Below, piece after piece: positions 3,764-27,744 of a stretch of 64,000 nt of DNA. Positions within the stretch are counted from its first letter, which is position 1; each line of letters begins with the position of its first letter. Source of the DNA: an uncultured Roseateles sp. (GTDB lineage Bacteria > Pseudomonadota > Gammaproteobacteria > Burkholderiales > Burkholderiaceae_C); contig NZ_CAMFJS010000010.1 of the NCBI RefSeq assembly GCF_945956965.1, positions 62,001-126,000 on the forward strand, given 5' to 3'. A program made the position numbers and the translations under genes. The notes beneath the pieces are model-generated. The model did no database searches. It was not told the origin of the DNA and was given only the letters and a program-made list of their open reading frames with translations.

Positions 3764-3787
3764 TATGTCCAGTCGGGTGTAAAAAAC

Positions 3788-3838
3788 CTACTACTAAGAG
3801 TCCCCCATGGAGGCGGAACTGCGCATTGAAAGTAGTAG
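3788..3838. repeat. Inverted repeat near the island's left end
   Basis: CTACTACT (3788-3795) and AGTAGTAG (3831-3838) are perfect 8-bp inverted arms 35 bases apart, starting about 24 bp inside the island. The TACTAC core recurs in the operator-like repeat at 4961-4985. It could be a recombinase accessory site or a regulator site; the rest of 3839-4021 is the leader of the first XRE gene and shows no other gene. Confidence 0.5.
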
Positions 3839-4021
3839 ATGCACCAATTTTTCCGCTGGGGCCCTACCACTCCCGCCCGCCCGAGTGAGTAGTTGGTGGG
3901 CGGAGCTACTTGTGGATAGCTTGAGGAAGCATCTAGTCTCGTGGTAACGGGCGCACCTCATCCATATCGCGATTTTTGATACCGCCAGATCTCAGCTACG
4001 GTGCGGGGCTGAGAGCAATCC

Positions 4022-4375
4022 ATGGTCAAGACCCTTCACAGCCGCCACAACAAGGTATTCCTAGACAAGCTGCGAAAGCTGCGGGAGTCGCGTAATCTTC
4101 GTCAGGCCGACCTAGCTCTTCTCCTGGGTCGCAGCCAAGGCTCGGTCAGCTATGTTGAGAGCGGCCAAACCCGCCTGGACATCATTGGCTTACGCGACTG
4201 GCTGGAGGCGCTTGACTACAGCTTCCTTCGCTTCCTGAGGGAGCTCAACGCTGAGCTCCGTCAGGCCGATGCTCTCGGGCCCCGCGCCCAGTCACGGCGC
4301 TCTCGCAAACGCACCTCCCGGCTGATCCAAGCAGGAGGCATTTCAGCTTCACTGACCGGTCAGTCGCCCGAGTAA
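4022..4375 (+). CDS. XRE-family helix-turn-helix regulator (first of a pair)
   Basis: 117 residues. Residues about 12-70 form a Cro/CI-type HTH (LRQADLALLLGRSQGSVSYV, then ESGQTRLDII). The HNKVFLDKLRKLR lead-in and the WLEALDYSFLRFLREL segment after the HTH match, position for position in character, the second regulator at 4409-4675, so the two are paralogues. The C-terminus is a basic Arg/Ser-rich tail with no recognised domain. It is the first gene of the island, reading inwards from the left end. It probably controls island or neighbouring nucleotidyltransferase genes; that is inferred from position only. Confidence 0.8.
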   Translation: MVKTLHSRHNKVFLDKLRKLRESRNLRQADLALLLGRSQGSVSYVESGQTRLDIIGLRDWLEALDYSFLRFLRELNAELRQADALGPRAQSRRSRKRTSRLIQAGGISASLTGQSPE

Positions 4376-4408
4376 ACGGCACTCACTCACATCCTGCAGA
4401 AGTCGCCG

Positions 4409-4675: not shown

Positions 4676-4720
4676 CCTGTAGCAGCTGCGAACGCAACCA
4701 CACAGGATCAAAGGAAGGTC

Positions 4721-4985: not shown

Positions 4986-4986
4986 T

Positions 4987-6033
4987 ATGAGCATGTTCGT
5001 TGACAACAGCCTGGCAGCTCAGGCGGCCTACTCCTCCGCACTCTCCGCAGCCCGGATGGCGCAGCTCAATCGATCGCCCGCCGACCTTCCAGGCGGCTTC
5101 GCGTCGAAGCTGATCCACGGCAAGCGGTACCACTACTACCAGCGCAAAGGCCCGGCCGGCCTCGAGCAGATCTACGTCGGTCCGGATGACGAGGCGACCC
5201 GCACGCTCATCGAAGCCGCTCACAACGAGACTGCGGTCGCGAACCAGGCGCACTTGCGCAAGTTGGCCAACGCGGCTGCAGCCTTGGGTTGCTACACCGT
5301 CACACCGAAGCACTTCCGAGTGCTGAAGCGCCTCGCTGATCACGGCGTGTTCTCCGCTGGCGCCCTTGTGGTGGGCACGCATGCCTTCCTGGCCTACCAG
5401 AACGTCCTGGGCGTGATCTGGGGGGATCCTGGCCAGACGGTTGACCTGGACTTCGCACACGCGGGCAGAAACCTCTCATTGGCCGTGGCGCCGGACGCCC
5501 GCGTCGATGCCCACTCGGCGATAGAGTCCCTGCAGATGGGCTTTGTGCCGGTGAACTCTGGAACACGCTACGTCAAGCCGGACGAGCCGGACTTCGATCT
5601 GGACTGGCTGACCTCGCGGACGCGCACCGGTGACGCACCGGTCGAATGCCGTGCGCTGAATGTGACCCTGCAGCCGCTTCGCTTCATGGAGCTGGCGCTT
5701 GAAGCGCCCATCCCGGCGGCCCTACTAGGCAACACTTCGGCCATCGTCGTCAACCTTCCGGCGCCGGCCGCCTACGCCGTGGGCAAGCTGCTTGTGGCGG
5801 CGGAACGGACCGGGGACAGCCGATCCAAGACGAAGAAGGACATCGCACAGGCAGCGGCGCTGATCGACTACTTCGTTCAGCGCGATCCGGACACCATCGT
5901 CGAGATGGTCGCCTTGACACGTGCACGCGGCCCGGCTTGGCGCAAGGCCTTGGACGTTGGCTTGGATGCCCTGAACCGGGCGTGGCCTCGCGTCGGTGAG
6001 AGCTTGGCTGCGGCGACCGAACAAGGGAAGTAA
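4987..6033 (+). CDS. GSU2403-like nucleotidyltransferase-fold protein
   Basis: 348 residues. The minimal nucleotidyltransferase pattern is visible: VVGTHAFLAYQNVLG near residues 125-139 followed by TVDLDFAHAG near 151-160 (Gly-helix and D-x-D metal-binding residues). This resembles the GSU2403-type families and, more distantly, the AbiEii/Type IV toxin fold. The N-terminal about 110 residues include a conserved-looking HGKRYHYYQ strand; the C-terminal half is helical and unassigned. Next to an XRE regulator with an operator over the start codon, it could be the active partner of a toxin-antitoxin-like or abortive-infection module. I see no second partner gene on the same strand. Family assignment is moderate; function is inference. 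Confidence 0.68.
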   Translation: MSMFVDNSLAAQAAYSSALSAARMAQLNRSPADLPGGFASKLIHGKRYHYYQRKGPAGLEQIYVGPDDEATRTLIEAAHNETAVANQAHLRKLANAAAALGCYTVTPKHFRVLKRLADHGVFSAGALVVGTHAFLAYQNVLGVIWGDPGQTVDLDFAHAGRNLSLAVAPDARVDAHSAIESLQMGFVPVNSGTRYVKPDEPDFDLDWLTSRTRTGDAPVECRALNVTLQPLRFMELALEAPIPAALLGNTSAIVVNLPAPAAYAVGKLLVAAERTGDSRSKTKKDIAQAAALIDYFVQRDPDTIVEMVALTRARGPAWRKALDVGLDALNRAWPRVGESLAAATEQGK

Positions 6034-6403: not shown

Positions 6404-6865
6404 ATGTTCGTTTCTCACCCTCAGTACGAGCTTCCATACCCATTGCTGTTTGAAGAACCTGACACCCGATACTGGCGCGTGATGGCGCTTAACCTTCATA
6501 CACCCTGGTTCTTGCTATCGGTGGAGCATGTCGCTCCCGATGAGCCCGACATGACCTTTGTGCGAACGCTGTGTATCGGGTGGGAGTATGACCTTGTAGA
6601 GACTCTGCGAAACCTCGACTCCTCCCGGGTCAAAGGGCTGGTCTGCATGCTGCCGGCTTGGCAGTCGGACACCGGCCAATGGTCGGCGCGCGAAATCCGC
6701 GAAGTCTGGCTCAGGGGCGACCATGCTGTGCTGGTCGACCCAAATGGCGAGAAGTTTGAGGCCAACCCGATCCTGGAGCCAGTCGGTCAAGCGAAGTTGG
6801 AACTTCTCTTGCGGGTAGCCGCTGCTCGGCCAAGGGGGCGCGGCAGATCCGGCGGCGCGAGCTAG
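6404..6865 (+). CDS. Hypothetical protein, 153 aa
   Basis: I do not recognise this protein. From the ATG at 6404 it reads MFVSHPQYELPYPLLFEEPD and continues with mixed alpha/beta character, several aromatic residues (WRVMALNLHTPWFLLSVEH) and a basic Arg/Gly-rich C-terminus. No signal peptide or membrane segment is evident. An in-frame start 27 codons upstream exists but the added residues look like translated leader. It stands alone between a broken gene and a stretch with an IS66 scrap, typical of cargo in island variable regions. Confidence 0.55.
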   Translation: MFVSHPQYELPYPLLFEEPDTRYWRVMALNLHTPWFLLSVEHVAPDEPDMTFVRTLCIGWEYDLVETLRNLDSSRVKGLVCMLPAWQSDTGQWSAREIREVWLRGDHAVLVDPNGEKFEANPILEPVGQAKLELLLRVAAARPRGRGRSGGAS

Positions 6866-8053: not shown

Positions 8054-8758
8054 CTAAACGGCAGCCTTCGGTATCTTCACAGCCGAGTGGACGGCGAGCA
8101 CGGTGCACACAAATCGTTCGGCCGCATGTCTGGCACTCACTCTAGTCAACAGATATTGCGCCACAAAGAGGCCGGCTGCGCCCCAAATTCCGGAGGCGCC
8201 AACCCCGGCGCCCCATAACGCGACTGGGGTTAGCAGCGCCAGCGGCAGTGACAGGACGGCCATGTCTCGGTACATAAGGAAGTCCTTCTGCGCTGACATC
8301 ACCTCGGTGCGTGATTCGATTTGCTTGTACAGCTTGTACCACTTGGAATTTTGCTCCTTGGGGTCCGTTGGAAGCGCCCCTACATTCTTCTTGAGCTGCG
8401 CCATATCCACCCGAGGGTCTGCAGGCCCATGACGCGTGAACGCTTCGCAGCCAGGCAGCACACCCAGCGGCTTCCAGAAGACGAGCATCGCCTTCGCATT
8501 CGAAGACAGCAGATTCAGGAGAAGCAGGACCAGGACCGGCATCAGTGCCGCGCTGAGCGCACGGAAAAGGCCCAACTGCGTCGCGGTCGCCGAAGTAAGC
8601 ACCTCAGGCGCGACAAACAGGCCAAGAAGGATCGCATCCGCTGTAGCCAGCGCGATGTGCCACTTGAAGTTCGAGGACTTCAGCGACCGATCGGCGTTCT
8701 TCATCATATTCTCCGCTCCGTCGAGGTTCGTCTGCTGCTGACCATACGAGTCCGTCAC
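8054..8758 (-). CDS. Multi-pass membrane protein paired with a metallo-beta-lactamase
   Basis: 234 residues from a GTG at 8758, which lies 2 bases past the upstream stop and has AGGAAGAGG as ribosome-binding site. Four hydrophobic segments are visible: about residues 38-58, 66-88, 176-195 and 200-218. Between the second and third is a soluble loop with a helix (YKQIESRTEVMSAQKDFLMY). The two-TM, loop, two-TM layout recalls SLATT/S-4TM-type pore effectors of nucleotide-linked defence, but no diagnostic motif is present. Co-transcribed with the MBL gene. Membrane effector is a hypothesis. Confidence 0.6.
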   Translation of the reverse strand: MTDSYGQQQTNLDGAENMMKNADRSLKSSNFKWHIALATADAILLGLFVAPEVLTSATATQLGLFRALSAALMPVLVLLLLNLLSSNAKAMLVFWKPLGVLPGCEAFTRHGPADPRVDMAQLKKNVGALPTDPKEQNSKWYKLYKQIESRTEVMSAQKDFLMYRDMAVLSLPLALLTPVALWGAGVGASGIWGAAGLFVAQYLLTRVSARHAAERFVCTVLAVHSAVKIPKAAV

Positions 8759-8760
8759 TC

Positions 8761-9831
8761 TCAATCCTCTTCCTGCTCTTCTGGGTACGGCCATTGCGGC
8801 ACCGGAGTCCAACCCCTGCTGATACCCTGAGCAAGGCACAGGTTCTTTCCCTCGGTCGCGGCGAAGTGCCCTCCTCGATGGTGAATGGCCCGGATCACTG
8901 AATTCTTTGGATGATGCTCGTCGGCCTTGGCTGAGCTGCAAAGTGCGTTGAACGAGTGCGTCGTGGCCGGGTTTGCCAGCCTCCCGCCAAGCCACGTGTC
9001 GAGGACTTCCGTATTGACGTTGTGTCGCCCCCCGTGATGCGGAACTTGGAACATCCACAGGCCTGGCAACTGCAGCCCCACATATGGGGCGTACGCGGCC
9101 GCCTCGGCGAGACCCTCACGTCCAGTGTCGCCGGTCAGCAAGATTCGCCTGTCGCAGATGTTGGCGTACTGGACAACGCTCATCTCGTTCTCGGAGCTGG
9201 TTCCTTCGACTGGGAAGTACTCGTGTGCCCATACAGCCTTGACGAGGTTTGCCACGGATTTGATGGCCTTGGTGAACAGGCTTCCTAGCCCGAAAGCCTT
9301 GTCCTCATCGACTGCAGCGGGAGTCTTGTCGGACTCGACGACCAGATCGAGGTATCGGGCTTTCGATGGGGCCATCACCGTAAAACTCCCGATCGATGCA
9401 CCCTGCAATGGCGTACTGATAGGGACACCTCTTGCCACAGCGAGCTCTTCAAGGCTTGCCGCGGCCGCATAGACAGTGCGCAGCCGGCGCCTCAGCGCAT
9501 CCACCGAGTTGTAGGTTTCAAATCGGTGGATTAGTTCATCCGCATAGAGCCAGGGCCGATTCATCCAGAGGCGACCCACCGTGCACTGCTCCAACACCTT
9601 TCTCAGGCCGTTGACGTGGTCCTGGTCTGTATGGGTCAGTACGACGTGATCGACGTGTGTCGTTTGATATTGCGTCTTCAAGTGCTCTACCAGCTTGTCC
9701 CCGGTGTCGAGGAATCCGCCATCAACGACGTGTACGGTGGTCGCACCGTTGACTGAGTAGCGAACGGCGATGGCGTCGCCGCTCTTGGCGGTTTCAACCG
9801 CCAGGAAGTCAATCTCAACAAAGTCGGTCAT
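8761..9831 (-). CDS. Metallo-beta-lactamase-fold hydrolase, ComEC/Rec2-like
   Basis: 356 residues from the ATG at 9831 (MTDFVEIDFLAVE), preceded by AGGGGAGCG. The metal-binding motif is VVLTHTDQDHVNGL (H-x-D-x-D-H as in the ComEC/Rec2 subgroup), with later LLTGDTGREG and VPHHGGRHN elements completing the fold. No transmembrane segments, so it is a soluble enzyme rather than a DNA-uptake channel. The substrate is unknown; such proteins occur in defence islands. It is the first gene of a two-gene minus-strand unit and is divergent from the WYL regulator, sharing a 99-bp gap to the 36-codon ORF. Confidence 0.8.
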   Translation of the reverse strand: MTDFVEIDFLAVETAKSGDAIAVRYSVNGATTVHVVDGGFLDTGDKLVEHLKTQYQTTHVDHVVLTHTDQDHVNGLRKVLEQCTVGRLWMNRPWLYADELIHRFETYNSVDALRRRLRTVYAAAASLEELAVARGVPISTPLQGASIGSFTVMAPSKARYLDLVVESDKTPAAVDEDKAFGLGSLFTKAIKSVANLVKAVWAHEYFPVEGTSSENEMSVVQYANICDRRILLTGDTGREGLAEAAAYAPYVGLQLPGLWMFQVPHHGGRHNVNTEVLDTWLGGRLANPATTHSFNALCSSAKADEHHPKNSVIRAIHHRGGHFAATEGKNLCLAQGISRGWTPVPQWPYPEEQEED

Positions 9832-9886
9832 GGTTTCGCTCCCCTGAAGTGGCAAGTAGGCGGCTCATCGCGCCGCGTGTGCGCGC

Positions 9887-9929: not shown

Positions 9930-10040
9930 ATGCGTCGCATTTTGATGCTAACACAAGATTATTTTCAGTCTATATACCGTTTTATGGTGATGCGTTATGA
10001 TGATCTTGACGCCGACTCATTTTTCCGCCGACAACCATGA
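9930..10040 (+). CDS. 36-residue leader ORF coupled to the WYL regulator
   Basis: ATG at 9930 preceded by AAGGA with 7-base spacing. The product begins MRRILMLTQDYFQSIYRFMV and ends in an acidic then basic tail. Its stop codon overlaps the ATG of the regulator at 10037, which itself lacks a clear Shine-Dalgarno, so the regulator may depend on coupling. It may be a real small protein, a leader peptide, or a fortuitous ORF in an AT-rich promoter region. Confidence 0.42.
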   Translation: MRRILMLTQDYFQSIYRFMVMRYDDLDADSFFRRQP

Positions 10041-10945
10041 GAGCCCCAACAGATGAACTGACGCAGCCTCAGCGCGATCGGCTCGCATACATCGAGCTTC
10101 GCGTGCGCTTCCTTGGGGAGGTGCGGCGCCAAGACTTGTTCAACCGGTTCGGCATTCAGGCGGCGGCGGCCACGCGTGATCTCGCCACCTACAAGGAACT
10201 GGTGCCTGGCAACATCGACTACGACAGCAAAGAGAAGGTCTACATTCGCTCGGAGCTATTCCGGCCGCTGTTCGACTTCGCCCCTTCCCGCGTACTGACT
10301 TGGCTAGCGCACGGGTACGGTGATAACGAGCCTGTCCGGCATCGGGCACTCCTGCCCGCGGAGGTGCCCACGGAGATCAATGAGCCAACTCTTGAGGCTC
10401 TCTCAGTGGTGACGCGCGCAATCCATCGGAAGTGCGCTATCCAGGTGACCTATCGCGCTCTTAGCAGCGGAATGACCACCCGTGAGATCGTGCCCTTCGC
10501 ACTCGCGGATGGCGGCAGTCGTTGGCACGTTCGAGCCTTCGATCGCCGCACCCGTGAATTCCGGGACTTTGTCCTGGCCCGAATTGCAGACGCACGTTTC
10601 GTCGACGGTGGCGTCCAGGAAGAGGAGCGCCCGGATCAAGACATCCAGTGGAACCGGATCGTCGAACTAGAACTGGTTCCCCACCCTGCCAACATGCGGA
10701 ACCCCGACACGATTGAAGCCGAGTACCAGATGACCGACGGGTGCCGCGTTGCCCGCGTCCGTGCCGCCTTGGTCGGTTACATGCTTCGTCGGTGGAACGT
10801 GGACTGCACACCGGATCATCGGTTGCGAGGTGGGGAAAACCACCTCTGGCTGCGAAACAGGCAAGCGCTTTACGGCGTAGCTAATCTTGTTCTAGCGCCT
10901 GGCTACGCCGAAGCTGGACTGGCCGAGCCACGTGAGGGCCAGTAG
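10037..10945 (+). CDS. BrxR/CapW-like WYL-domain transcription regulator
   Basis: 302 residues in three parts: an N-terminal winged helix ([20 protein letters not shown], then [13 protein letters not shown]), a central WYL domain about residues 130-215 ([20 protein letters not shown], with the ligand-binding strand [20 protein letters not shown]), and a C-terminal WCX-like segment ([12 protein letters not shown] onward). This architecture is that of regulators that sense nucleic acids or nucleotides at BREX, CBASS and other defence loci. It sits at the head of the helicase-methylase-ATPase genes, 50 bp upstream of the helicase, and likely represses the unit. Confidence 0.87.
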
Positions 10946-10995: not shown

Positions 10996-14523
<3,528 letters not shown>

Positions 14524-14537
14524 AGGAACAACAACAC

Positions 14538-17429
14538 ATGGCGACCATCAAGGCCCCCAAGAAACTCATCGAGGTCGCGCTGCCGCTCGATGCAATTAAC
14601 GAAGCAGCCACTTACGAAAAGCTTGTCAAGGTTGGCAAACCTCAGAGCATTCATCTTTGGTGGGCGCGTCGGCCGCTCGCGGCCGCCCGTGCAGTCCTGT
14701 TCGCCCAGTTGGTAAATGACCCGGGCTACCAGCAGGGCGGCGGATTCCGCTACGGCGTGAACAAGGAGAAGGCCGCGTTAGAACGTGAACGGCTGTTCAA
14801 GATCATCGAAGACCTTGTGCAGTGGGACAACACCAACAACGAGGAGGTCCTGGAGCGCGCTCGAGCCGAGATCCGACGCTCATGGCGGGAGACGTGCGAA
14901 CTGAACAAGAGCCATCCGCATGCACCCGAGCTATTCAACCCGGACAAGTTGCCAGGCTGCCACGACCCATTTGCCGGTGGCGGCGCCATTCCGCTGGAGG
15001 CGCAGCGCCTAGGGCTGGAAAGCTACGCATCTGACTTGAACCCAGTGGCAGTGACGATCAACAAGGCGATGATCGATATCCCGCCAAGATTTGCAGGTCG
15101 AGTCCCCGTAGGTCCTCTGCCGCCTGGTGAGAAGCAGGCCAACCTGCATGAGGACTGGCGTGGTGCTCGCGGGCTTGCCGAAGACGTTCGACGCTACGGC
15201 GCATGGATGCGCGCCGAGGCAGCAAAACGCATTGGGCACCTATACCCGAAGATCAGAGTTACGGCTGATATGGCAGATGAACGTCCAGACCTGAAGCCTT
15301 TGGTAGGACAGTCACTGCCCGTAATCGCATGGCTGTGGGCACGCACAGTCAAGAGCCCCAACCCGGCGTTCAGCCATGTCGCGGTGCCACTTGCATCGAC
15401 CTTCGTTCTGTCGACTAAGGAAGGCAAGCAGGCGTATGTCGCGCCAATAGTTAACGGCGACAACTATCACTTCACTGTGCGCCTCGGCGCGCCAGATGAT
15501 GCCGCGAAGAACGGCACCAAGCTAACCCGCGGAGCAAATTTCCAATGTCTGGTCTCTGACACGCCGATTGAACCCAAACACATCTACGCCGAGGCGAACG
15601 CGGGACGCATGGGCGCGAGATTGATGGCAATAGTGGCAGAGGGAACACGTGGCCGCGTATACCTGTCCCCAACCGCAGACCACGAGGCAATCGCTTGCGA
15701 AGCGGCGCCCGAGTCGAAACCGGAAGTTGCCATGCCGGACAACCCGCGTTGGTTCTCTCCGCCGCTGTACGGGCTCAAGACCTATGGTGACCTGTTCACC
15801 TCCCGTCAGTTAGTTGCATTGAACTCCTTTACCCAACAGGTCCAAGACGCTATTGATCGTTGCCGCAAAGATGCAGTGGCTGCGGGCATGCCCGACGACG
15901 GTGTTCCGCTGGAAGCTGGTGGGAGTGGTGCAGCTGCATATGCAGAAGCCGTAGGTGTCTATCTGGCGTTTGCGCTCAGCCGGACAGCAGACTGGGGAAA
16001 TTCCTTGTCGCGCTGGGAGTCCAAGGCCCAAGTGCCACAGCAGCTCTTTGGGCGTCACGCGATACCAATGGTGTGGGACTTTGCCGAGGCCAACATTCTT
16101 GGATCTAGCACTGGATCCCTCGATGCATCAATTCAAAACATCTACAAGAGCTTTGTGAAGAGCTCAGCGGGTTCTGTAATCCCGGGCCACGCACTGCAGG
16201 ATGATGCTCAGACGCAGAGGGTCACGGCTAACAGAGTCGTTTCTACGGACCCTCCCTACTACGACAACATCGGCTACGCGGATCTTTCTGACTTCTTCTA
16301 TGTTTGGCTGCGCAAGTGCCTCAGGCCGATTTTTCCCAATCTCTATGCGACGGTCGCTGTCCCTAAAGCAGAGGAGTTGGTAGCAACCCCATATCGGCAC
16401 GGGAGCAAGGAAAAGGCAGAGGCCTTCTTTCTGGATGGCATGACTCGGGCGATGCACAACCTAGCGGAGCAGGCGCACCCAGCATTTCCGATCACCATCT
16501 ACTACGCCTTCAAGCAAAACGAAACGTCAGACACGAGCGGCACTACGAGTACCGGATGGGAAACCTTCTTGGAAGCAGTTCTCCGAGCAGGTTTTGCCAT
16601 CTGTGGCACGTGGCCAATGCGGACAGAGATGGGAAGTCGCATGATCAGCGCGGGCACCAATGCTCTCGCGTCCAGCATCGTTCTTGTGTGTCGCCAGCGG
16701 GCGGCGGATGCGCTCACTGTCAGTCGCCGAGAATTCATCCGGGAGCTAAACGCAGCGCTGCCTGTTGCCCTAGACGAAATGACGCGGGGCGGCGTCAACT
16801 CACCCGTTGCCCCGGTGGATCTTTCGCAAGCGATCATCGGTCCCGGCATGGCAATCTTCAGCCAATATGCCGCAGTGCTTGAGGCTGACGGCACACCGAT
16901 GCGGGTGAAGACGGCGCTGCAGCTGATCAATCGCTTCCTTGCTGAGGACGATTTCGATCACGACACACAGTTTTGCCTGCACTGGTTCGAGCAGCAAGGC
17001 TGGGCTACAGGCAAGTTCGGCGAGGCCGACGTACTGGCTCGGGCCAAGGGCACCAGCGTTTCCGGCTTGCAGGCGACGGGCGTCGTCGAGTCTGGCAAGG
17101 GCGACTTGCGCCTGCTGCGCTGGGCCGAGTTGCCGCGCGAATGGTCGCCCGAAACAGACACGCGGCTCCCAGTGTGGGAGGCGCTGCATCATCTCATCCG
17201 CGCGCTGAATCAGGACGGCGAGTCAGCGGCCGGAGCGCTGTTGGCCCGCATGCCAGCCAGGGCCGAGCCCATCCGTGCCCTGGCCTATCGGCTTTACACC
17301 TTGTGCGAGCGCAAGGGCTGGACAGACGACGCCCGTGCCTACAACGAACTAGTCACTGCGTGGAGCGCCGTCGAGCAGGCCGCCGGCGAGGTCGGTGTAG
17401 TCGGTTCGCAAGCGCAACTGGACATCTGA
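14538..17429 (+). CDS. DUF1156 DNA methyltransferase of a defence operon
   Basis: 963 residues starting [20 protein letters not shown], the conserved DUF1156 N-terminus, with [20 protein letters not shown] following. The S-adenosylmethionine site is [19 protein letters not shown] (about residues 141-159) and the catalytic motif is [20 protein letters not shown] (DPPY at about 571), which defines an amino-methyltransferase (N6-adenine or N4-cytosine). The motif order puts the AdoMet site first, with a roughly 430-residue insertion between motifs that could carry target recognition. A longer open frame reaches back into the helicase gene, but the ATG at 14538 with upstream AAAGGAAC is the natural start. 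It likely marks host DNA as self. Confidence 0.92.
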
Positions 17430-17442: not shown

Positions 17443-20292
17443 ATGGCACTGAAACCCTGGCGGGAGATCGCCGTCCCTCACGAGGACGTGCTCAAGGGCA
17501 CGTTCCAGCAAGCCGAGTTCGCGGCGGATCTGTCCCGCGTGCACGCAGGCACTGCGACTGTCGAGTACCAAAACCCGGCGCTGTTCTTCCAGCGCACCTT
17601 CATCACGGAGGGTATGCGCCTGCTTCTCGACTCCGTGGTCAAACGCCTTGCGGGCAAGGGCGGCGACCCGGTCATTCAGCTGCAGACAGCGTTCGGCGGT
17701 GGCAAGACGCACACCATGCTGGCGGTCTACCACATGGCCAAGGGCGAAGTGCCGGCCAGCGACCTGCAGGGCTTGGGAGACATCCTGAATGCAGCGCAGA
17801 TCACCGAGTTGCCGCGCGCCCGCATCGCTGTGCTGGACGGCATCAAGTCCTCGCCCAACCAGCCGGTGAAGCGCGACGGACAGCCGGTGCGCACGCTGTG
17901 GGGCGATCTGGCCTGGCAGCTGGGTGGTGCCGAAGGCTACGCCCTGGTGGCCGATGCGGATGCCTCGGGCACGTCGCCCGGCAAGGCGGTGCTGGAGACG
18001 CTGCTGGCGCGCTGTGCGCCCTGTGTGATCCTGATCGACGAGTTGGTGGCCTACGTTCGCCAGTTCGAGGAGGGCAAGACACTCACGGGCGGCACCTTCG
18101 ATTCCAACCTGTCGTTCGTGCAGGCGCTGACCGAGGCACTGAAGGCCGTGCCCACGGCCGTGCTGCTGGCATCACTGCCCGAGTCGGACAAGGAAGCCGG
18201 CAGCCAGCGTGGTGTGAAGGCGCTGGGGGCACTTGCGCACTACTTCGGCCGCGTGCAGGCGCTGTGGAAGCCGGTGGCCACCGAAGAGGCATTTGAGATC
18301 GTTCGGCGGCGGCTGTTTGCCTCGATCAACGACAAGCTGGCGATGGAATCGGTGTGCCGTTCCTTCGCCGACTTCTACACAGCCAACCGCGACGACTTTC
18401 CACAGGAGACGCAGGAGAGCCGCTACTTCGAGCGGCTGGTGCACGCCTACCCGATCCACCCGGAGGTCTTCGACCGACTCTACGAGGACTGGTCGACCCT
18501 GGACAACTTCCAGCGCACCCGCGGCGTGCTGAAGATGATGGCCAAGGTCATCCACCGGCTGTGGAAGGACGGCAACAACGACCCGCTGATCATGCCCGGC
18601 AGCTTGCCGCTGTACGACGCCGACGTGCGCAACGAGGTCATCTACTACCTGCCCCAGGGCTGGGACCCAGTGATCGAACGCGACGTGGATGGCGAGCGTG
18701 CAGAGACCACCGAGATAGAGAACAAGGACACCCGCTTCGGCAGCGTGCAGGCTTGCCGTCGTTCAGCACGCGCGGTGTTCCTGGGCAGCGCGCCAAGCAC
18801 CACGAACCAACTGGTGCGGGGCCTTGAGCTGGAGCGTGTGATCCTCGGCGTCATCCAGCCGGGCCAGCAGATCGGGTTGTTCAAGGACGCGCTGCGCCGC
18901 CTTGGCGACCGGCTGCACTACCTCAACCACGCCAACAACCGTTTCTGGCTCGACACGCGGCCCAACCTGCGCCGCGAGATGGAGGAGCGCAAGCGTCGCT
19001 TCCAGGATAAGGAAGACGTGTTCCCGACCGTCCGCGAGCGTGTGCAGCGCGGCTTCGCCAGTGGCGCGTTCGGCGGCATCCACGTCTTCACCGACAGCGG
19101 TGACGTGCCCGACGACTGGGCGCTGCGCCTGGTGGTGCTGCCACCCGACGCCGCGTTCAGCAAGAGCGGCCAGAGCTTGGCCATCGACCGGGCGACCGAG
19201 ATCCTGAAGAAGCGCGGCGACCAGCCCCGCTTCAAGCAGAACCGACTGATCTTCCTGGCCGCCGACTACGACAGCGTGAGCCGGCTGAAGGACCATGTGC
19301 GCTCGTTCCTGGCGTGGCGCAGCATCGTGGCCGACTACAAGGACAACCGCATCGTCCTCGACAACCTGATGGCCAAGCAGGCGAACGCCAGTCTGGAGCA
19401 GGCTGAGGAAACCGTGCGCCGCATGATCCGCGAGACCTACAAGTGGCTCGTGGCGCCGATGCAGGAGGCGCGCCCCGGCAAGGGCTTGTCCGAGCTGCGG
19501 TGGGAGCACTTCCAGGTTAACCCCGGCGCGCAGAACTGGTCGCAGGAGATCGAGCGCGTGCTCAAGGAGAACGAGCTGCTCATCAACGAGTGGGCACCGA
19601 TCCACCTGGCCAAGGTGCTGAAGGACTGGTTCTGGAAGGACGACACCAAGGAGACCAGCGCACTCAATGTCTGGCAGCAGAGTTGCCAGCAGCTCTACCT
19701 GCCGCGCCTGAAGGACGACACCGTCTTCCAATTGACGATGGCCGCGGGCGCGGAGAGCCGCGACTTCTTTGGCTTCGCGCAAGGCAAGGAGGATGGCCGG
19801 TATGTCGGATTCAGCTACGGCCGGCGCACGTCGCCGATCATGGACTCGTCGCTGCTGCTGATTGAGCCGTTTGCCGCGGCGGCCTACATTGAGGCGCTGC
19901 GTGTTGCAGAGGAAGCCTCTCGCACCAAGGCCGCTGATGCGGGCGGGGGCGCTTCCACTACGGGCGTGACCGCTCGCGGCGGCGAGGCGCCTCGTGTCGA
20001 AGACTCCGCTAACGGGGGATACCAGACTGGCATGGCTGCGACCGGCCAGGCCTTGAAGAAGCAGTTCTACGGCAGCATCGAGCTCGACCCGATCCTGGCG
20101 AAGAAGCAGTTCGCCGATCTGGTCGATGAGGTCGTGCAGCAGTTCACCATGCGCACCGGCGTGAAGGTGAAGATCGCCATCGAGATCCAGGCCGAGTCGG
20201 TCACGGGGTTCGACGATGGGCTGCAGCGGGCCGTGAAGGAGAACTGCAACGTGCTGAAGTTCAAGAACGCCGAGTTCGAGTTGGGGGGCTGA
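17443..20292 (+). CDS. DUF499 AAA-type ATPase of the defence operon
   Basis: 949 residues starting [20 protein letters not shown]. Walker A is [15 protein letters not shown] (GGGKTHT at residues about 85-91) and Walker B is [13 protein letters not shown] (about 194-206). The C-terminal 250 residues include a Gly/Ala-rich linker near 830-865 and a final alpha/beta domain with [13 protein letters not shown]499 ATPases recur beside DUF1156 methylases and DISARM-like helicases. It starts 13 bp after the methylase and overlaps the next gene by one base (TGATG), so it is translationally coupled on both sides. Confidence 0.92.
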
Positions 20293-21425
20293 TGGCACAA
20301 GACGACGATGCCCAGAGTACCGGTCAGGGTTCGCCAAAACGCAAGACATTAGACCTTGATCTGCTCTTCGGGCCTGTGACGAGCGTGCCGACAACAGTCG
20401 GCACCGTGTACCTCTACGGTCTGCGCGCATCCGACTTTGATGTACTGCAGAAACTGACCGAGGCCGAGCCCTCGGCGCGGTTTCGGGCCCTGCTGCCTTG
20501 CATCGCCAGTCTCGTGGAGAGCAAGGGCTTCAAAGACGAGCGACAGCCAATACCGGCCGAGGAGGTGGATCGGCTGACTGTGTCAGACCTGGATGCGTTA
20601 GCCGAAGCCTACGCTGCAAAAATACAGCAGCGCGTTCGTGCCGACAGCGACACGCGGGAAAGTCCGCCGCAACGCGCCCCTGACGAGCCGTCAACGGCCT
20701 ACTTGGATCGCGTGCTGAAGCAAGAGGTCAAGGCTCAGCTCGATCAGCTTCTAACAGTGCGCGAAAAGATGCTGGCATCAACTAGCAGCATCTTCGATAA
20801 GGTGCGCAAGAGTTCCTCAGCCCTTGGTTCAACTCTGTCCGCATTCGACCAGCTGACTAAGAGCACAGCACCAGTCGAGATCCGCGCTCCGAACATGGAT
20901 CACTTTCACGCCATGAATGAGCAATTCGCTCGGCAGGCGCGTGAGCGCGCTGAAGAGCTGGAGATGGTTCGGCTGACAGGGAAGATGACGGCCGAGTCGG
21001 CCAAGACACTCAAGGACCTTGCAGAGGCGGCGACGGTCCTGTTGCAACAACTCGATGAGCGTGACAAGAAGGCCGATAAGTCGACGAGCAAACAGATCAC
21101 CATTGCCGTGTGGTCGGTGGGGATTTCAGCGGTGCTGGCCTTGTTTGCATTGGTCTTCTCAGGCCTGGCCTACTTCCAGGACAAGGCCAACAATGCGGCC
21201 GGAGACAAGTGGCAATCTGAGCTGATTTCTGCTGTACAAAGCGGCAATCAGCAGCGCGAGGCAGCTGATAAAGAGGCCAGGCAGCTCCGAGATCAGGTTG
21301 CTGCACTTGAAGCCAAGATCGCGCGCATTGAGACGGCTACGACTGCCGCATTGCCTGGCAAGAGCGCGACTTCAGCCTCAGCCCACCGCGCGACCAGTCC
21401 TGACGGCATATTGCCACCACCGTAG
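20292..21425 (+). CDS. Unassigned coiled-coil, single-TM protein, last gene of the defence operon
   Basis: 377 residues; ATG overlaps the DUF499 stop. I do not recognise the family. The N-terminal about 110 residues are globular (LDLDLLFGPVTSVPTTVG, then YLYGLRASDFDVLQKL), faintly like a phage tail-assembly chaperone. Residues 140-260 are helical and coiled-coil-like (MNEQFARQARERAEELEM), followed by one strong transmembrane helix about 271-293 (VWSVGISAVLALFALVFSGL) and a second short coiled coil and Pro/Ser/Ala-rich tail. Coupling to the ATPase argues for a structural or membrane-tethering part in the same complex. Could also be passenger. Confidence 0.8.
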   Translation: MAQDDDAQSTGQGSPKRKTLDLDLLFGPVTSVPTTVGTVYLYGLRASDFDVLQKLTEAEPSARFRALLPCIASLVESKGFKDERQPIPAEEVDRLTVSDLDALAEAYAAKIQQRVRADSDTRESPPQRAPDEPSTAYLDRVLKQEVKAQLDQLLTVREKMLASTSSIFDKVRKSSSALGSTLSAFDQLTKSTAPVEIRAPNMDHFHAMNEQFARQARERAEELEMVRLTGKMTAESAKTLKDLAEAATVLLQQLDERDKKADKSTSKQITIAVWSVGISAVLALFALVFSGLAYFQDKANNAAGDKWQSELISAVQSGNQQREAADKEARQLRDQVAALEAKIARIETATTAALPGKSATSASAHRATSPDGILPPP

Positions 21426-21637: not shown

Positions 21638-22057
21638 ATGGAACGCGTTCGCATTGATAAGTGGCTTTGGGCTGCCCGCTTCTACAAAACCCGTTCGCTT
21701 GCTGCCGACGAAATCACACGCAATCGCGTCCAGGTGAACGGCGATACTGCTAAGGCATCCCGTGAAGTCAAGGTAGGCGATACCGTTTCAGTACGCCAGG
21801 GCTCCGTTACTCGCGTCGTACGAGTGCGTGGTGTAAGCCAAATTCGTGGCCCGGCACCGACGGCACAGGCACTCTACGAAGAAACTGAGGAAAGCCTCCG
21901 GGCCCAAGCCGAGGCGCGCGAGCAACGCCGAATCGCAAACGAACCGGCGCTCAGCATTGAGCACGGCCGCCCAACGAAGAGAGATCGACGTGAGTTGGAT
22001 GCGGTCCAACATGTCGATTGGGATGATAGATGGAGCGCAAAGCTCAGCGAGGGCTGA
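21638..22057 (+). CDS. hslR: Island-borne complete HslR (Hsp15, S4 domain)
   Basis: 139 residues: MERVRIDKWLWAARFYKTRS, S4 domain through VKVGDTVSVRQG, then YEETEESLRAQ and HGRPTKRDRRELD, so the full family length with intact N- and C-termini. It is a divergent homologue of the split host gene, lower in GC, hence acquired rather than duplicated. Its start region is identical to the host gene over 17 bases (GATAAGTGGCTTTGGGC at 21656-21672) at exactly the sequence next to the insertion point. It converges with the recombinase trio and probably supplies Hsp15 activity lost on integration. No strong Shine-Dalgarno is visible. The 212-bp stretch before it has no other gene. Confidence 0.95.
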   Translation: MERVRIDKWLWAARFYKTRSLAADEITRNRVQVNGDTAKASREVKVGDTVSVRQGSVTRVVRVRGVSQIRGPAPTAQALYEETEESLRAQAEAREQRRIANEPALSIEHGRPTKRDRRELDAVQHVDWDDRWSAKLSEG

Positions 22058-22138: not shown

Positions 22139-22786
22139 TCATCTGCCAGCGCCGTCACCAGTAATTTTCCGAAGCGCTGAAACATAACCTACGCGCTGAA
22201 TGGTGCGTCCCTTTGAATTCAGCACGCGCCCATGTTCATCAGTTACCCAACCTTCTGAATCCAGTAGGTCAGTACTAATAGCATATCTGAGAGCAGAAAT
22301 TTCCGACGCAGTCAAGCCATGCGAAGCCGGAAGTATCTCTATCGTGTCACCTGCCGGCGTCGGCGCTTCCGCACGAAGATCGACCACCAAATTAAGATTT
22401 GCTTTGAGTGTTCTGAGCTCCCCCCGCATTTTCCTGTTCTCCGCAATCACCGCGCCAATAATAGATTTAACCGCGATATCCGGGATCTTGCTCAGCACCG
22501 CTGCAATCGGATCATCGGCCACCTGCTTGGGCTTCTTTGTAGAACATGATGAAAAATCGGCCCAAGCCTTTATTAGTCCCCTGTAGTCATCTCCTGTACG
22601 ATTTCTAATAGTCGATTCGGCAGGACCACCTGCTTTGAGTGAAAGCCTTGCAATGGTGGCAGTACTAAAGTCTTTGCTACCGCGATCATGCTGCTCCTGA
22701 CAGACAGCGTTCAAGATAGTCAAGTTTCTCACTTTGCGCGCATTGGATTTCGCACAGAGCAGTTGGAACAGTTCTTCGGGCCTCAT
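22139..22786 (-). CDS. gmtX: GmtX-like third protein of a recombinase trio
   Basis: 215 residues starting MRPEELFQLLCAKSNARKVR. The N-terminal half contains a likely HTH (DFSTATIARLSLKAGGPAES, then TIRNRTGDDYRGLI), in the style of proteins that accompany paired tyrosine recombinases and help bind DNA. Residues 95-150 form a coiled-coil-like helix; the C-terminal part has an ASEISALRYAIS helix and GRVLNSKGRTI strand. It follows the large recombinase after 9 bp. Assignment rests on order, size and the N-terminal pattern of the gamma-mobile-trio. Confidence 0.72.
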   Translation of the reverse strand: MRPEELFQLLCAKSNARKVRNLTILNAVCQEQHDRGSKDFSTATIARLSLKAGGPAESTIRNRTGDDYRGLIKAWADFSSCSTKKPKQVADDPIAAVLSKIPDIAVKSIIGAVIAENRKMRGELRTLKANLNLVVDLRAEAPTPAGDTIEILPASHGLTASEISALRYAISTDLLDSEGWVTDEHGRVLNSKGRTIQRVGYVSALRKITGDGAGR

Positions 22787-22795: not shown

Positions 22796-25700
22796 TCAAT
22801 GCGGTGCGCCGGCTGCAGGAGCTGCCAGCTTCATGATTCTTGCAGCGGGTATCGCAATCATAGATGTCGAAATGACTTCCAAAGCGTCATCCAAAACACC
22901 CAATTCATGCAGTGATTTGCGCCCCTCGATGTACTCCACTGCTCCTTTCAATGTACCAGCCCTCGATTTAATCAACTCAACAACAGCATTTCCCACCTTT
23001 AACTGCTGATCCTGAGACAGTCGGTAAAATATTGGGCTCTTTCCGTTCAGCTCCAGCATGCAGTCCAGGATTTGGCTCCGGCGCAGAGTCGGCCTTCTCG
23101 CGTCTACCTCGGGATACATCACAGCGCTCTGACAAAGCACCTCAATTTGATGAAATTCTGAGTTTGTCTCTGTGAGTGCAAATTTAATATCAGAGATCCC
23201 GCCAACTGGAACAAGGTGAACACCACCCTTCTTGTCTCTGTTGAGAATTTCTATTGAGCGACCGATAAGGTAGTGACACGCCTGCATGTCATTCAATAGC
23301 CCACCCATTGCCTCAGCTTCTGCCTCCATTCGCTGTGAGACCTTTTCGAGTTCTTGATGCCCCCCAAAAATACCGCCGAATTGTTCACAGTGGGAACGCT
23401 CATTCTCAAGCCGAATGACCCTATCACTGAGATCAGAATGGCGCTCGGCGGTCTCATGCGTGCGATAGCTAATCTCATTGAAATGAGCCTGCAAGCCGGG
23501 AAGAAATGCTGGCCCAGTTAAGAAAAACCTACATCGAACACAATTCCGCGTCGCGGGATATCCAGGAACCGGCCCAAATAGTGCACGACGTTTGGCATCC
23601 GATTCATTGCCTATGGGATCCCCACCCACATCACACATCGTCCCGCCAACTGGACAAATTCCCTTATCTTCAAAGATGAATGCAGCCGCAGATGGTTGCT
23701 TGGATGCGGCCAATGCTGCACTGGGTGCAAGACTGGAGAATCGCTTGTCAATCTGCTCCACGGTCGCATTCATGAGAAACCGTCTATGATTTTCCTTATC
23801 TGCTTCGATTGATTTCTTTTCAGCCTCTGACAGGACCTCCGCCATATAAGCTAAGCCTAGCTTGGTATAGTAGATCGTCATGATGATTCTTGAATGTCCC
23901 GCGATAAGCTTGGAAACGACAGAGATAGGCAACTGCAGATCAAGAATTAAGTAGCTAATCAGCGAGACTCGAAGCGAGTGTAGAGGGAAATAGGACTCGC
24001 TACTCCCTTCTCCAACGACAAATCTTATTGGCGTTCCGTCGTCGAGGGTTTCCCCTCGATTTTCACAGCGCAGCTCGAGCTCAGCCAACATGGCGTACCA
24101 AAGCCCTGAAACAGGTATCTTTGTTATCGGCAGAAGTTTATCTGCGCCGCGACCAGCAGCATTACGGAACAGAAAACAGCCAGAACCTCTTTCAGCCAAA
24201 ACCTCCTTACTGGTCGCAGACCCGAGATGCTTCACCTCCAAGGTCGTCCATGGAGTAGGGCAAGCAATCGGGTTATACCGCTCTTGCCAATTTCTCAGTT
24301 TCTCAAGCCAGTACAGAACCTCACGATGTGTCCAAGGTATTACGTATCCCTTCCTGTTTTCCGGCTTATTCAGATCTGCAGTTTTATTCGTATTGACGAA
24401 TAGGCCCGCCCCGCTCTCCCGCGCATCGCGATGAAACACGCCAACTTGGTATGGCCTCTTCTGGCTTCCAATGGCCAAGGCAGATTCGTTAAGAACAAAC
24501 TTGCCGTCCTGATATCTCCATGTGTCGGCCTCACCACTATCAAGAAGCCGAACTTGAGTGGTTCGAAGCGGTAGTTCCAGCTTGATGTAGATCGCCATCG
24601 CTCGAACAGGTGACCAAAGCTCCGTGATTTCAGCGCCTAATCCCCGTTCAAGCTCTGTTCTTGTCGCTGGGCGTACTCGCCAAACACAATCGAGGTCATT
24701 CTTGTCGATTAATTCCGCATCGACAGCAAACCAGTCACCGTAGCCACGATTGCTGTCGCTATCTGTAGCCCTATGCGCCCATTCCCAATCCCTAAAGTTC
24801 TGCCCTGGCGCCAGAAGTCCCCTAAGCTCTTTAATGTAGCGGATCGAGAGTACAGAACGGACCGATTCCGATGGGGTTGCAATCCCCCCAAATGTCAACT
24901 TTGGGACAGGATTGTGGAAATGAGGGGGTACGACACGATTTCCATGCCCGTCATCAATGCTCAATTTTTCATTCAAAATCCATTGAAGGAAATCATGCAC
25001 CGCATTGTTGATCTTCACGCGATGGGATTTTTGGTGCCCTGTTTCATCAGTGGCGCCTTTTTGACGCGCCGAAGACAGCATCGGCTTCGCTGAATCACGC
25101 CGCAGGAATATGATGGGCTGGAGTTCAACCCTTTGGGCGTGAACATAATCTATTAAGAAATGGTTGATCGCTTTAAGTTTCGCCGAGATCCCCCCTCTTT
25201 GCTTTGATAGATACTCCGCAGCCAACGTTTGCCAGTGTATAAGCCCTGGATTGATCTTAAGCAGATGAGCGAATTCAAAATCCGTAGTTTTTCCTAGCAA
25301 TCTATCGGCAAATCGCGAGAACGGATTTCTCAAATGAGAGTGAGGTGAGACTTCCTTTGCACCAACTTTTAACTGATCCAGAACCCATGCCGCAAAGTCA
25401 AAAATTGCGTCGTTTGTTCTAACGATTGTCTTTTCCGAGGACCTCCGTATGTCCCCTATCGTTTGCTTGAGATCAGGAACGGGATGGTTGCCTTCAAAGA
25501 TGAATCTCGGGTCGAGCGGAAGTTCATGTTCAAGCAGATATCCAAGGAAAAATAGATTCAGAGAAGCTTTCGCGAGCTCGTCACCGATCGACTCTTCAGC
25601 AAGCCAGCGCGCTGCAAATGCTCTCCACCCCTCGAAACCCGGATTGAAGTCGAGCAGATACTTAAACTCCGGGTCAAATCCGACATTGAGCGACTTTGCT

Positions 25701-26101
25701 CGCCGTCTCCGAAACGGGCTCCGCAAAATCTCTAGCTCGCCTTCCTTTAGGTTCAACGAAGAACGAATGCTTCGAGCCACCCACTTCACGAAGTCACATA
25801 TCGCATCGTGCATCTTTGTCCGCGTCGTCTCCGCCGTTTTGCAGACGCGTTCAAGAACAACCATTAGGTCGGGCACCGACTTCGTTGAATCAAGCAAGTA
25901 CTTAGGGTCGAGTGGTACACCCTCTCCAAGAAGATAGTCGACGAAGAAATAGACCAACGCTGATTTCACCGTGCCCCGGGTCGTTCCATTTTGCTGAGTT
26001 GCGTACCATTCCTTCGCTAGCAGCCTCCATTCTTCGAAGCCACTATCTAGCTCAAGCAAGAATTTGAAGTTCTCGTCAACGTGCTTGACTGGTCGTCGCA
26101 T
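22796..26101 (-). CDS. gmtZ: GmtZ-like giant tyrosine recombinase with three N-terminal repeats
   Basis: 1101 residues from the ATG at 26101, which has AGGAGG 7 bases upstream (an in-frame TTG two codons earlier is less likely). Three tandem modules span about residues 9-130, 143-262 and 274-392, each with F..LL..(N/D)(S/P)G, W....A..(W/Y), a ....FF.DYLL helix, LDP.(Y/F), DA..DF..W and an ending such as LRNPF. The catalytic part has an Arg candidate in LPLRTTQVRLL, HSLRVSLISYL (H-x-x-R), AGHSRIIMTIYYT (His and Tyr). A Cys-rich segment (CPVGGTMCDVGG, then NCVRCRFF) follows, then coiled coil. It overlaps gmtY by 26 bp and so is coupled to it. Confidence 0.8.
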   Translation of the reverse strand: MRRPVKHVDENFKFLLELDSGFEEWRLLAKEWYATQQNGTTRGTVKSALVYFFVDYLLGEGVPLDPKYLLDSTKSVPDLMVVLERVCKTAETTRTKMHDAICDFVKWVARSIRSSLNLKEGELEILRSPFRRRRAKSLNVGFDPEFKYLLDFNPGFEGWRAFAARWLAEESIGDELAKASLNLFFLGYLLEHELPLDPRFIFEGNHPVPDLKQTIGDIRRSSEKTIVRTNDAIFDFAAWVLDQLKVGAKEVSPHSHLRNPFSRFADRLLGKTTDFEFAHLLKINPGLIHWQTLAAEYLSKQRGGISAKLKAINHFLIDYVHAQRVELQPIIFLRRDSAKPMLSSARQKGATDETGHQKSHRVKINNAVHDFLQWILNEKLSIDDGHGNRVVPPHFHNPVPKLTFGGIATPSESVRSVLSIRYIKELRGLLAPGQNFRDWEWAHRATDSDSNRGYGDWFAVDAELIDKNDLDCVWRVRPATRTELERGLGAEITELWSPVRAMAIYIKLELPLRTTQVRLLDSGEADTWRYQDGKFVLNESALAIGSQKRPYQVGVFHRDARESGAGLFVNTNKTADLNKPENRKGYVIPWTHREVLYWLEKLRNWQERYNPIACPTPWTTLEVKHLGSATSKEVLAERGSGCFLFRNAAGRGADKLLPITKIPVSGLWYAMLAELELRCENRGETLDDGTPIRFVVGEGSSESYFPLHSLRVSLISYLILDLQLPISVVSKLIAGHSRIIMTIYYTKLGLAYMAEVLSEAEKKSIEADKENHRRFLMNATVEQIDKRFSSLAPSAALAASKQPSAAAFIFEDKGICPVGGTMCDVGGDPIGNESDAKRRALFGPVPGYPATRNCVRCRFFLTGPAFLPGLQAHFNEISYRTHETAERHSDLSDRVIRLENERSHCEQFGGIFGGHQELEKVSQRMEAEAEAMGGLLNDMQACHYLIGRSIEILNRDKKGGVHLVPVGGISDIKFALTETNSEFHQIEVLCQSAVMYPEVDARRPTLRRSQILDCMLELNGKSPIFYRLSQDQQLKVGNAVVELIKSRAGTLKGAVEYIEGRKSLHELGVLDDALEVISTSMIAIPAARIMKLAAPAAGAPH

Positions 26102-27635
26102 TTGCAATCCTCCTAAACCTATTTTCTTCCTTGGCGAGAAGCCCTAGAGGATCAAAGTCATGAAATCCAAAGTCAGCCAGATTCGGGCGATCAGGTTCAT
26201 TGCCATCAGATCGGCGCAAACTTTCTTCAATCATCGATTGCACCTGCTCGTACTCTGGCTCCGTATAAATTGCTTGGGATTCAAGTGATCTATGGTGCAT
26301 GGCCTTCTTAATCACCAGCGCTCCAATTTTTGCTTTAGCAAGCTTCTGACCATACGCATGCCTATGCCCATGCGCAGTTGTTCCCAGAACTTTCGCTGGA
26401 ATAAGTCCAATCCGCTCGACCGCCTTTGCATGCTGTCCCATAAAGGTATCTAGAGAATATGGATCCCCCTTCTCCGTCACGAATGCGAAAGGATGAATGC
26501 AGTCAAGCTGGGATCTTGTTGACATGTAGTAGATCCATAGCTTCAAGAAGAGTTCGGCCGCCCATGTCGATGACCAAAAGACGTAAAAGAAGTTGCCTCC
26601 ACCTTCAAGCGCATTTCCTTTCCAACCTGCATGCAATTGGTTTGTCGTTGAATAGAGGTTTCGCGGAAGCAAGCCATATCGCGTTCGCAAGTAGGCCTGT
26701 CGATTCAAGGGCTGCTGTTTAAGCCCTGGAACCCCGGCATCTGGCGGTACTGCTCCCGAAGACGGGTGGTAGATTCGAACCAGAGCCTGATCTGGGTGAA
26801 GTGGATTCGCAGCCACGTCATGGACAAACAAATGGAATGGCTCTGAAACACGCACTCCGCCGTAATGCATGAGCATCGTGATCAGGATGTCTCGCACATT
26901 GAGGCGCTCTTCCAGTCGGGGACTTGTTTGCCGCCCAGGCACGATGAACCCTGCAAAAAGGAGATCAAGAATTCGTTCCCTTGGGAAAATCTTGGTCGCG
27001 CCACGGTCGACAACGGGTGTGCGTCCCAGCATCACGCTGCGGGCCCGCCGAAGTTCTACCGCTGCGGCGCTGCTGCTATAGGTGTGACCGAGAAATGCCC
27101 TGTCGCGTCTCTGATGCCAGGCAGCCCAAGCAAGGGCTTCCTCGCCACGGGTCGCCGTTCGCCAGGGATTGAGTGGCCGTGTGCCATCTCTGTCTGCAAG
27201 CCAATCGCTGAGAGCCGTTATCGGCCCCAACAGACCACGGACAGCGGACTCACCTCGCCCAAACCAGTAGAGACCACTCGGATCGATACCGTCAGGTCCG
27301 ATCGTCCCAGAGTGCAAAGCCCCCGCGAATGCAACGAAGAGGTCCCTAGAGTCCTCAAAGCAGCTCCGATTCGCCAGGAAGTAATCCAGTAGGAGCGAAA
27401 CCCCTAGGACGAGCTTGTTCATCCAGCTCTGGCTGCGGGCGTGGCCTACAAACGCCAAATACCGCGCAAGTGGCATCAGTGGCCCGTGCTCGGTGAGGAT
27501 CACGGGGATCTCTTGCCAAACACCAGAGTTGTCTCGATATGCGCGCCCTCTAACTACCGAGTGGCGCGTGTGCCCCTCAACGACCAGACCTACGTCAGAA
27601 GGATCTGACACCGAGCAAGAAGAAGAACATAACAC
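26076..27635 (-). CDS. gmtY: GmtY-like tyrosine recombinase
   Basis: About 519 residues from a GTG at 27635; GTG at 27611 or 27704 are alternatives. Catalytic elements of the tyrosine recombinase family are visible: HYGGVRVSEPFHL (Arg I), TAHGHRHAYGQKL (box II His/Arg) and AMHHRSLESQAIYTEPE (third His and nucleophile Tyr). A -35/-10-like pair TTGCAG (27693-27688) and TAAAAT (27672-27667) lies just inside the island end, favouring a start below 27660. First gene of the trio, reading inwards from the right end. With GmtZ it presumably catalyses integration and excision at the hslR site. Confidence 0.8.
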   Translation of the reverse strand: MLCSSSCSVSDPSDVGLVVEGHTRHSVVRGRAYRDNSGVWQEIPVILTEHGPLMPLARYLAFVGHARSQSWMNKLVLGVSLLLDYFLANRSCFEDSRDLFVAFAGALHSGTIGPDGIDPSGLYWFGRGESAVRGLLGPITALSDWLADRDGTRPLNPWRTATRGEEALAWAAWHQRRDRAFLGHTYSSSAAAVELRRARSVMLGRTPVVDRGATKIFPRERILDLLFAGFIVPGRQTSPRLEERLNVRDILITMLMHYGGVRVSEPFHLFVHDVAANPLHPDQALVRIYHPSSGAVPPDAGVPGLKQQPLNRQAYLRTRYGLLPRNLYSTTNQLHAGWKGNALEGGGNFFYVFWSSTWAAELFLKLWIYYMSTRSQLDCIHPFAFVTEKGDPYSLDTFMGQHAKAVERIGLIPAKVLGTTAHGHRHAYGQKLAKAKIGALVIKKAMHHRSLESQAIYTEPEYEQVQSMIEESLRRSDGNEPDRPNLADFGFHDFDPLGLLAKEENRFRRIANATTSQAR

Positions 27636-27666
27636 GTATTGATAACATGAAGAGTGCAGATAAATG

Positions 27667-27693
27667 ATTTTAATGCACGATAGACGACTGCAA
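27667..27693 (-). promoter_or_regulatory. Candidate promoter of the recombinase trio
   Basis: TTGCAG (27693-27688) and TAAAAT (27672-27667) on the minus strand, 15 bases apart, followed by AT-rich leader. It sits 50-75 bp inside the right island end, so the trio would be transcribed from within the element irrespective of the host locus. Confidence 0.4.
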
Positions 27694-27744
27694 GCCCTGC
27701 ACACCGATCAAACAAGGACTGGTAGGTTTGCGCGCACCATGTAA

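Follow-up and report, generated by a model that had tools for sequence, protein, structure and literature searches.

In the common view, mobile islands spare their hosts by entering the 3' ends of tRNA genes or intergenic sites, which they restore. Gamma-Mobile-Trio (GMT) islands, which Mahata et al. are said to have described in 2024, reportedly carry genes in the order gmtY-gmtZ-gmtX together with defence cargo. The element RME of Vibrio cholerae S24 (Rapa et al. 2014, PMC4405046) is an island in recA that carries a divergent, working recA; its excised form is circular and can return to the site it left, and its reported mobility genes encode a phage integrase and a XerS-like recombinase, with 9-bp inverted repeats. 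The same paper cites an insert in the thymidylate synthase gene of C. difficile that carries another, more active version of that gene. GInts (PMC5385486) have several recombinase genes and give sequence variants at the attachment site upon excision. The locus compared with these systems here lies in 64,000 nucleotides of an uncultured Roseateles sp. (contig NZ_CAMFJS010000010.1, positions 62,001 to 126,000; this whole stretch is called the window), in which a GMT island splits the host gene hslR and contains a full-length hslR of its own.

It is very probable that the island integrates in hslR after codon 26 and that the spare hslR it carries makes the split cost the host little. This reading is built on the split itself, a relative whose empty site is collinear with the flanks, the three mobility genes, the intact hslR of the island and the recurrence of split plus copy at four further genes in related islands. 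A preliminary description of the locus had already read it as an insertion, and rightly; the GMT identity, the replacement hslR and the recurrence of the design were absent from it.

Insertion of a Gamma-Mobile-Trio island within hslR

Host hslR is interrupted by the island at positions 3764–27744 of the window (23,981 bp), between codons 26 and 27, and the cut falls inside the region of the S4 domain (residues 4–50 of the island copy). The host pieces, the island copy and the mobility genes are arranged as follows.

3401–3763, minus strand: 3' piece of host hslR, codons 27–146 and stop, forming the far flank
21638–22057, plus strand: full-length island hslR, 139 amino acids, S4 domain (PF01479), convergent with gmtX at a distance of 81 nt
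22139–22786, minus strand: gmtX, NF040692 at 213.6 bits (cut-off 40), no Pfam family
22796–26107, minus strand: gmtZ, integrase, NF047926 at 991 bits (cut-off 600), PF13009 Integrase_2
26076–27704, minus strand: gmtY, tyrosine recombinase, NF040693 at 501.5 bits (cut-off 340), PF00589 Phage_integrase
27745–27822, minus strand: 5' piece of host hslR, codons 1–26 (MKNQ...KWLWA), the flank on the gmtY side, collinear with the relative G005

The preliminary description had placed the island between two hslR codons and had stated that the joined flanks form an in-frame 146-codon open reading frame (ORF) with the family motif; joining the pieces by script indeed gives a single 146-amino-acid HslR ORF with KWLWAARFFKTR. 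The empty site is represented by G005, a same-genus genome chosen by eye for its most host-like hslR. In blastn, the joined flanks and G005 stay collinear across the junction, without a gap there (91.9% over 2023 bases), a second collinear stretch follows further on (97.4% over 960 bases), and the two hslR genes align without gaps at 36 differences per 441 nt, so that the earlier statement that no hslR residue was lost holds against this close relative. The KWLW[A/V]AR stretch around the cut is unbroken in 17/17 other same-genus hslR matches, which come from 16 of the 17 other genomes (one genome has no match and G017 gives two). The window holds no tRNA or tmRNA gene, on which ground a tRNA-targeting genomic island was rejected and the claim that the target is a protein-coding gene, not a tRNA 3' end, is upheld.

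One of the two G017 matches is degenerate, with two stops (L086, G017:C108, contig positions 6662–6964); like the host locus in the window it adjoins a histidine-kinase-like ORF, and an intact hslR lies on another contig. This second hslR is possibly contamination or the product of another past event. Around the join in the window, six synonymous differences from G005 are found within 27 nt (3752–3761 and 27745–27757), which is 6 of the 36 differences in hslR and mildly unusual for that place (P about 0.017). Two of the six (AAG and CTT) agree with the island's own hslR. That the element brought this cluster with it was considered and dropped, since a 6-nt overlap cannot explain a stretch of that length.

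Assignment of the island to the GMT elements follows from GmtY, GmtZ and GmtX all exceeding their curated NCBIfam cut-offs, encoded by adjacent genes on the same strand. All three lie in the right-hand 5.6 kb of the island, the gmtY ORF starting 40 nt from the island end, and G+C, counted in 2-kb bins, is 50% between 22 and 26 kb as against 62–68% in the host bins at both ends of the window.

The island hslR is located between the cargo and gmtX and has GATAAGTGGCTTTGGGC in common with the split host gene. A search of the whole genome gives two hslR matches in all, the truncated 3' host piece and the island copy, the latter being the only intact hslR. The copy shares 64% identity with the host piece and 63–67% with intact same-genus genes; when 399 genomes of the order were searched, the best further match reached 72% and belonged to another genus of the same family. 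Judged by these identities, the island hslR is no recent duplicate of the host gene. The locus thus combines a conserved host gene split by an island with a full-length, diverged copy within that island, as in an RME-like replacement-copy island.

Split genes and their copies in related islands

The split-plus-copy design recurs in related GMT islands at greB, radA, a DUF1244 gene and yhgN. Relatives of GmtY were collected from named genomes (25 loci), from samples of the order and of the family (399 genomes each), from plasmids, from E. coli and from 196 genomes of the genus of V. salinus, with matches in 22; the GmtY matches of G806 were left out. Fourteen gene-splitting islands were recognised, 13 of them with a copy of the split gene, and 12 of the copies are intact, that of the window included; five genes (hslR, greB, radA, the DUF1244 gene and yhgN) are thus seen both split and copied. 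Both ends were mapped for the islands described here.

The largest group lies in Vibrio. In V. salinus, greB is split and a full greB stands right after gmtX. Eight further Vibrio islands were chosen by GmtY alone (at least 57% like that of V. salinus), and all nine of these related islands lie in greB, exactly at D47|Y48; each has its own intact greB ORF (156–160 amino acids), which follows the gmtX match by 36–40 nt (9/9). Eight of these copies are 75–96% identical to the V. salinus copy, and the split host pieces 68–94%. The nine copies start with GTG or TTG and appear ordinary, being up to 93% like other Vibrio GreB. Y(T/V)F is present in eight of nine island copies as against Y(Q/H)Y in seven of the nine hosts with a split gene (in this ungapped comparison the figures for the G860 copy are unreliable). 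That recoding of the site protects the copies from renewed insertion is not claimed, the split hosts G802 (YTF) and G860 (YTY) breaking the pattern.

A second island in G803 splits the DUF1244 gene and holds a full copy of it, which lies about 120 bp beyond gmtX. In G801, yhgN is split and a full copy, 52% identical to the split host piece, lies near the far end of the island; here the truncated gene was spotted first and the copy found afterwards. In G566, a family relative of the window genome, radA is split by a roughly 45-kb island with a radA copy between gmtZ and gmtX. The copies exceed the NCBIfam equivalog cut-offs for greB (249 against 188 bits), radA (581 against 403) and yhgN (226 against 215), and the DUF1244 copy exceeds that of Pfam (120 against 27 bits).

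In a flank test, tblastx (threshold 1e-6) was used to compare 1.5 kb of flank beside gmtY with the remainder of the same stretch at 67 oriented GmtY loci, at least five of which are second views; two more loci had too little flank. Matches were obtained in 14 rows, corresponding to 12 distinct loci, each of which is a split gene accompanied by its copy. Eleven of the 12 were known beforehand, the sole new one being radA, and the fraction means little since the known loci had been entered with extended stretches.

Other GMT islands sit at terminator-like sites. E. coli has one island at eno/ygcG and one at crcB/cspE, for both of which MG1655 has the empty site; the flank test found no copy of the gmtY-side flanking gene in either. 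Both sites fold as terminator-like hairpins, and to within one base pair the element is placed where the loop ends on its 3' side. The terminator pattern is drawn from folding of these two sites and one IncHI2 plasmid site, and from some Vibrio loci seen by eye. Three Vibrio islands (L185, L186 and L187) appear, by eye, to lie just downstream of a guaC-like gene, beside an apparent signal recognition particle (SRP) RNA gene; guaC and SRP RNA sites are also used by Tn7-like CRISPR-associated transposons.

On plasmids, all 148 GmtY matches are below 60% identity, as are all 25 hslR matches, many of the 20 listed being in chromosome-sized records. Among viral contigs, two stretches matched a pattern and neither encodes a GmtY relative.

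Taken as a branch, these elements likely share a strategy of landing inside a conserved gene and bringing a spare, each lineage using one site in one gene (hslR, radA, greB, the DUF1244 gene or yhgN) and a diverged copy of it, with other lineages at intrinsic terminators, where no spare would be needed.

Island ends, cargo and the proposed mode of insertion

The preliminary description allowed at most for duplication of a TGC triplet. GCA (TGC) is indeed common to the two junctions, and is unconvincing as a target duplication; a long target-site duplication was rejected, as GCA is all the window junctions have in common. None of the 20 families of direct repeats and 25 pairs of inverted repeats listed, out of a larger number, makes a convincing terminal repeat of the island. 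In E. coli, comparison with the MG1655 empty sites gives no overlap at the eno site and 5 nt at crcB/cspE.

The clearest footprint comes from the eno-site element, which is 98.6% identical over 11.2 kb to an element on an IncHI2 plasmid. Past the common end (CTGTATACTC) the chromosome reads AAGTAT and the plasmid CTTTGT, with GCTGGC next in both, and three IncHI2 plasmids with an empty site read GGCCAGC-AAGTAT-GCTGGC. AAGTAT thus separates the two arms of the empty plasmid site and also stands at the far end of the chromosomal element, a footprint compatible with transfer of the element from a plasmid site of this kind to the chromosome, 6 nt being taken along. This footprint of another GMT element lends indirect support to mobility of the window island. 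Tn554 likewise carries a 6-nt donor sequence.

Among the greB islands, compared by eye, the gmtY end begins with TTAG in nine of nine and the far end is CTAA in seven, CTAT and CTAG in the other two; six variable nucleotides follow the far end in eight of the nine and seven in G803, all nine sequences being different. In the radA island, each of the two junctions reads GAGATC. Absence of duplication together with a 6-nt donor sequence is thus seen in the E. coli/IncHI2 pair and is consistent with eight of nine greB islands, and by analogy the window would have the following feature, placed by eye from the comparison of ends and relatives.

3764–3769, minus strand: probable 6-nt coupling sequence, GACATA in the orientation of hslR

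In the proposed mechanism, the recombinases GmtY and GmtZ, with GmtX, would integrate the island at a site inside hslR, exchanging a 6-bp overlap rather than duplicating the target, so that each insertion would bring a 6-nt coupling sequence from the previous site; the element would leave as a circle. The island HslR would be made and would take the place of host HslR, and with this spare, splitting the host gene would cost little. In a cell whose own gene is split, imprecise loss of the island would remove HslR as well, which would favour retention, and HmaABC and the other defence-type cargo would ride along.

This cargo includes an HmaABC-type defence locus, with end-to-end matches to the PADLOC HmaA, HmaB and HmaC families, and a nucleotidyltransferase accompanied by helix-turn-helix (HTH) genes.

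4022–4375, plus strand: HTH regulator, HipB-like
4987–6033, plus strand: nucleotidyltransferase (NTP_transf_8, PF12281, E 3.9e-40)
8761–9855, minus strand: metallo-beta-lactamase-fold candidate defence protein PDC-M48B (PDLC04676, E 5e-148)
10037–10945, plus strand: WYL-type regulator (PDLC01457, E 2.8e-17)
10996–14523, plus strand: HmaA-like SNF2/DEAD helicase (PDLC00659, 2131 bits over 1–1174)
14529–17429, plus strand: HmaB-like DNA adenine methylase (PDLC00660, 1723 bits), its start chosen inside the ORF 14223–17429
17443–20292, plus strand: HmaC-like AAA+ ATPase (PDLC00662, 1587 bits)
20292–21425, plus strand: ORF after hmaC, ending 212 nt before the hslR copy, with no family at E 0.001 in NCBIfam, PADLOC or Pfam

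The PDC-M48B match is full-length and adjoins an ORF at 8054–9058 for which no family was found. In many GMT islands a small conserved gene (..GQQ/GQEK..) and a large helicase-like gene stand beside the trio, as seen by eye, before gmtY in L020–L023, L025, L030 and L032 and after gmtX in L034, L035, L039, L191–L195 and L197; neither of the two was seen among the window ORFs, where no homology search aimed at them was made.

Alternative readings and relation to known systems

Several results weigh against the reading that the island integrates specifically in hslR and supplies a spare for it. The window's is the only GMT island found in hslR, and its nearest GmtY relatives (at most 60% identity) lie elsewhere, so specificity for this site rests on analogy with the other genes. 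The island hslR scores 95.4 bits with the Hsp15 model NF007673, below the cut-off of 148; membership of the HslR family is safe, and because of this score exact equivalence to Hsp15 is less certain. No sigma-70-like promoter was found upstream of it, where 0.3 would be expected by chance. The flank test gave no match in 53 of its 67 rows, the window among them; the window was missed because only 26 hslR codons lie on the gmtY side, and the test is blind where little of the gene is on that side or the copy lies beyond the stretch, as with G801, which a 20-kb stretch missed and a 60-kb stretch recovered. It was the copy that drew attention to the first greB case and to the DUF1244 and radA cases, and the counts therefore give no unbiased rate. 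The G566 radA copy covers the gene with its first codons in another frame; barring an assembly error, a frameshift near codon 13 is the apparent reason, and this copy may be non-functional. In G840, a split yhgN piece lies on an 8.4-kb contig on which no full yhgN copy was found. Finally, the place of the copy varies among the islands (beyond gmtX, flanked by gmtZ and gmtX, or close to the far end), and the spare is thus no fixed module.

Of the alternatives, the one that survives best, although we judge it unlikely, is that the copy mainly anchors the island by addiction, the split host gene decaying until the island becomes indispensable. The truncated host pieces and the position of the copy as the only intact hslR in the window genome would suit such a role, which sequence cannot separate from that of a backup; precise excision, on the other hand, would restore hslR. 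It is improbable that the copy serves as a switch, excision and insertion swapping HslR or GreB versions of differing activity or regulation and thereby altering function. The more active thymidylate synthase of the C. difficile insert (cited in PMC4405046) offers a precedent for it, and the divergence of the copies from the host pieces (64% for hslR, 52% for yhgN) and the GTG or TTG starts of the nine greB copies point the same way, but the greB copy looks ordinary, up to 93% like other Vibrio GreB. Chance cargo unrelated to the insertion site, which the many genes held by islands and the single hslR case might suggest, was already strongly disfavoured and is extremely improbable given that, at all five target genes, the gene copied is the one that is split, and given 12 of 12 distinct flank-test loci that are split-plus-copy and nothing else.

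If the island does bring a spare for the gene it breaks, a second solution to the problem of harm emerges, seen at five genes, in which a conserved gene is broken and a replacement supplied, and such islands may land in useful genes without depriving the host. This would explain the coding targets of defence-carrying islands, the horizontal swapping of single-gene markers (greB, radA, recA and hslR) and how a host comes to depend on its island. It also predicts that for any island inside a conserved gene, that gene should be found within the island. Among the best literature matches, with subscription papers mostly outside them, no report was found of the split-plus-copy design for GMT islands or for hslR, radA, greB or yhgN.

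The window island resembles the GMT islands reportedly described by Mahata et al. in its gmtY-gmtZ-gmtX order and defence cargo, and may differ from them in lying inside a coding gene and carrying that gene's replacement. With GInts and Tn554-type transposons it shares the possession of several recombinase genes; GInts, in contrast, make imperfect direct repeats, probably without full inactivation of the target (PMC5385486). The closest parallel is RME, which also lies inside a conserved gene with its own divergent copy, a copy that works in RME and is recognised from sequence in the window. Its authors (PMC4405046) offer the same rationale for the spare copy as is given here, and RME differs in its target, recA, in its phage integrase and XerS-like genes and in its 9-bp inverted repeats. 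An island in a conserved gene with its own copy is therefore already known from RME; what is described here is a GMT island in a coding gene that brings the spare.

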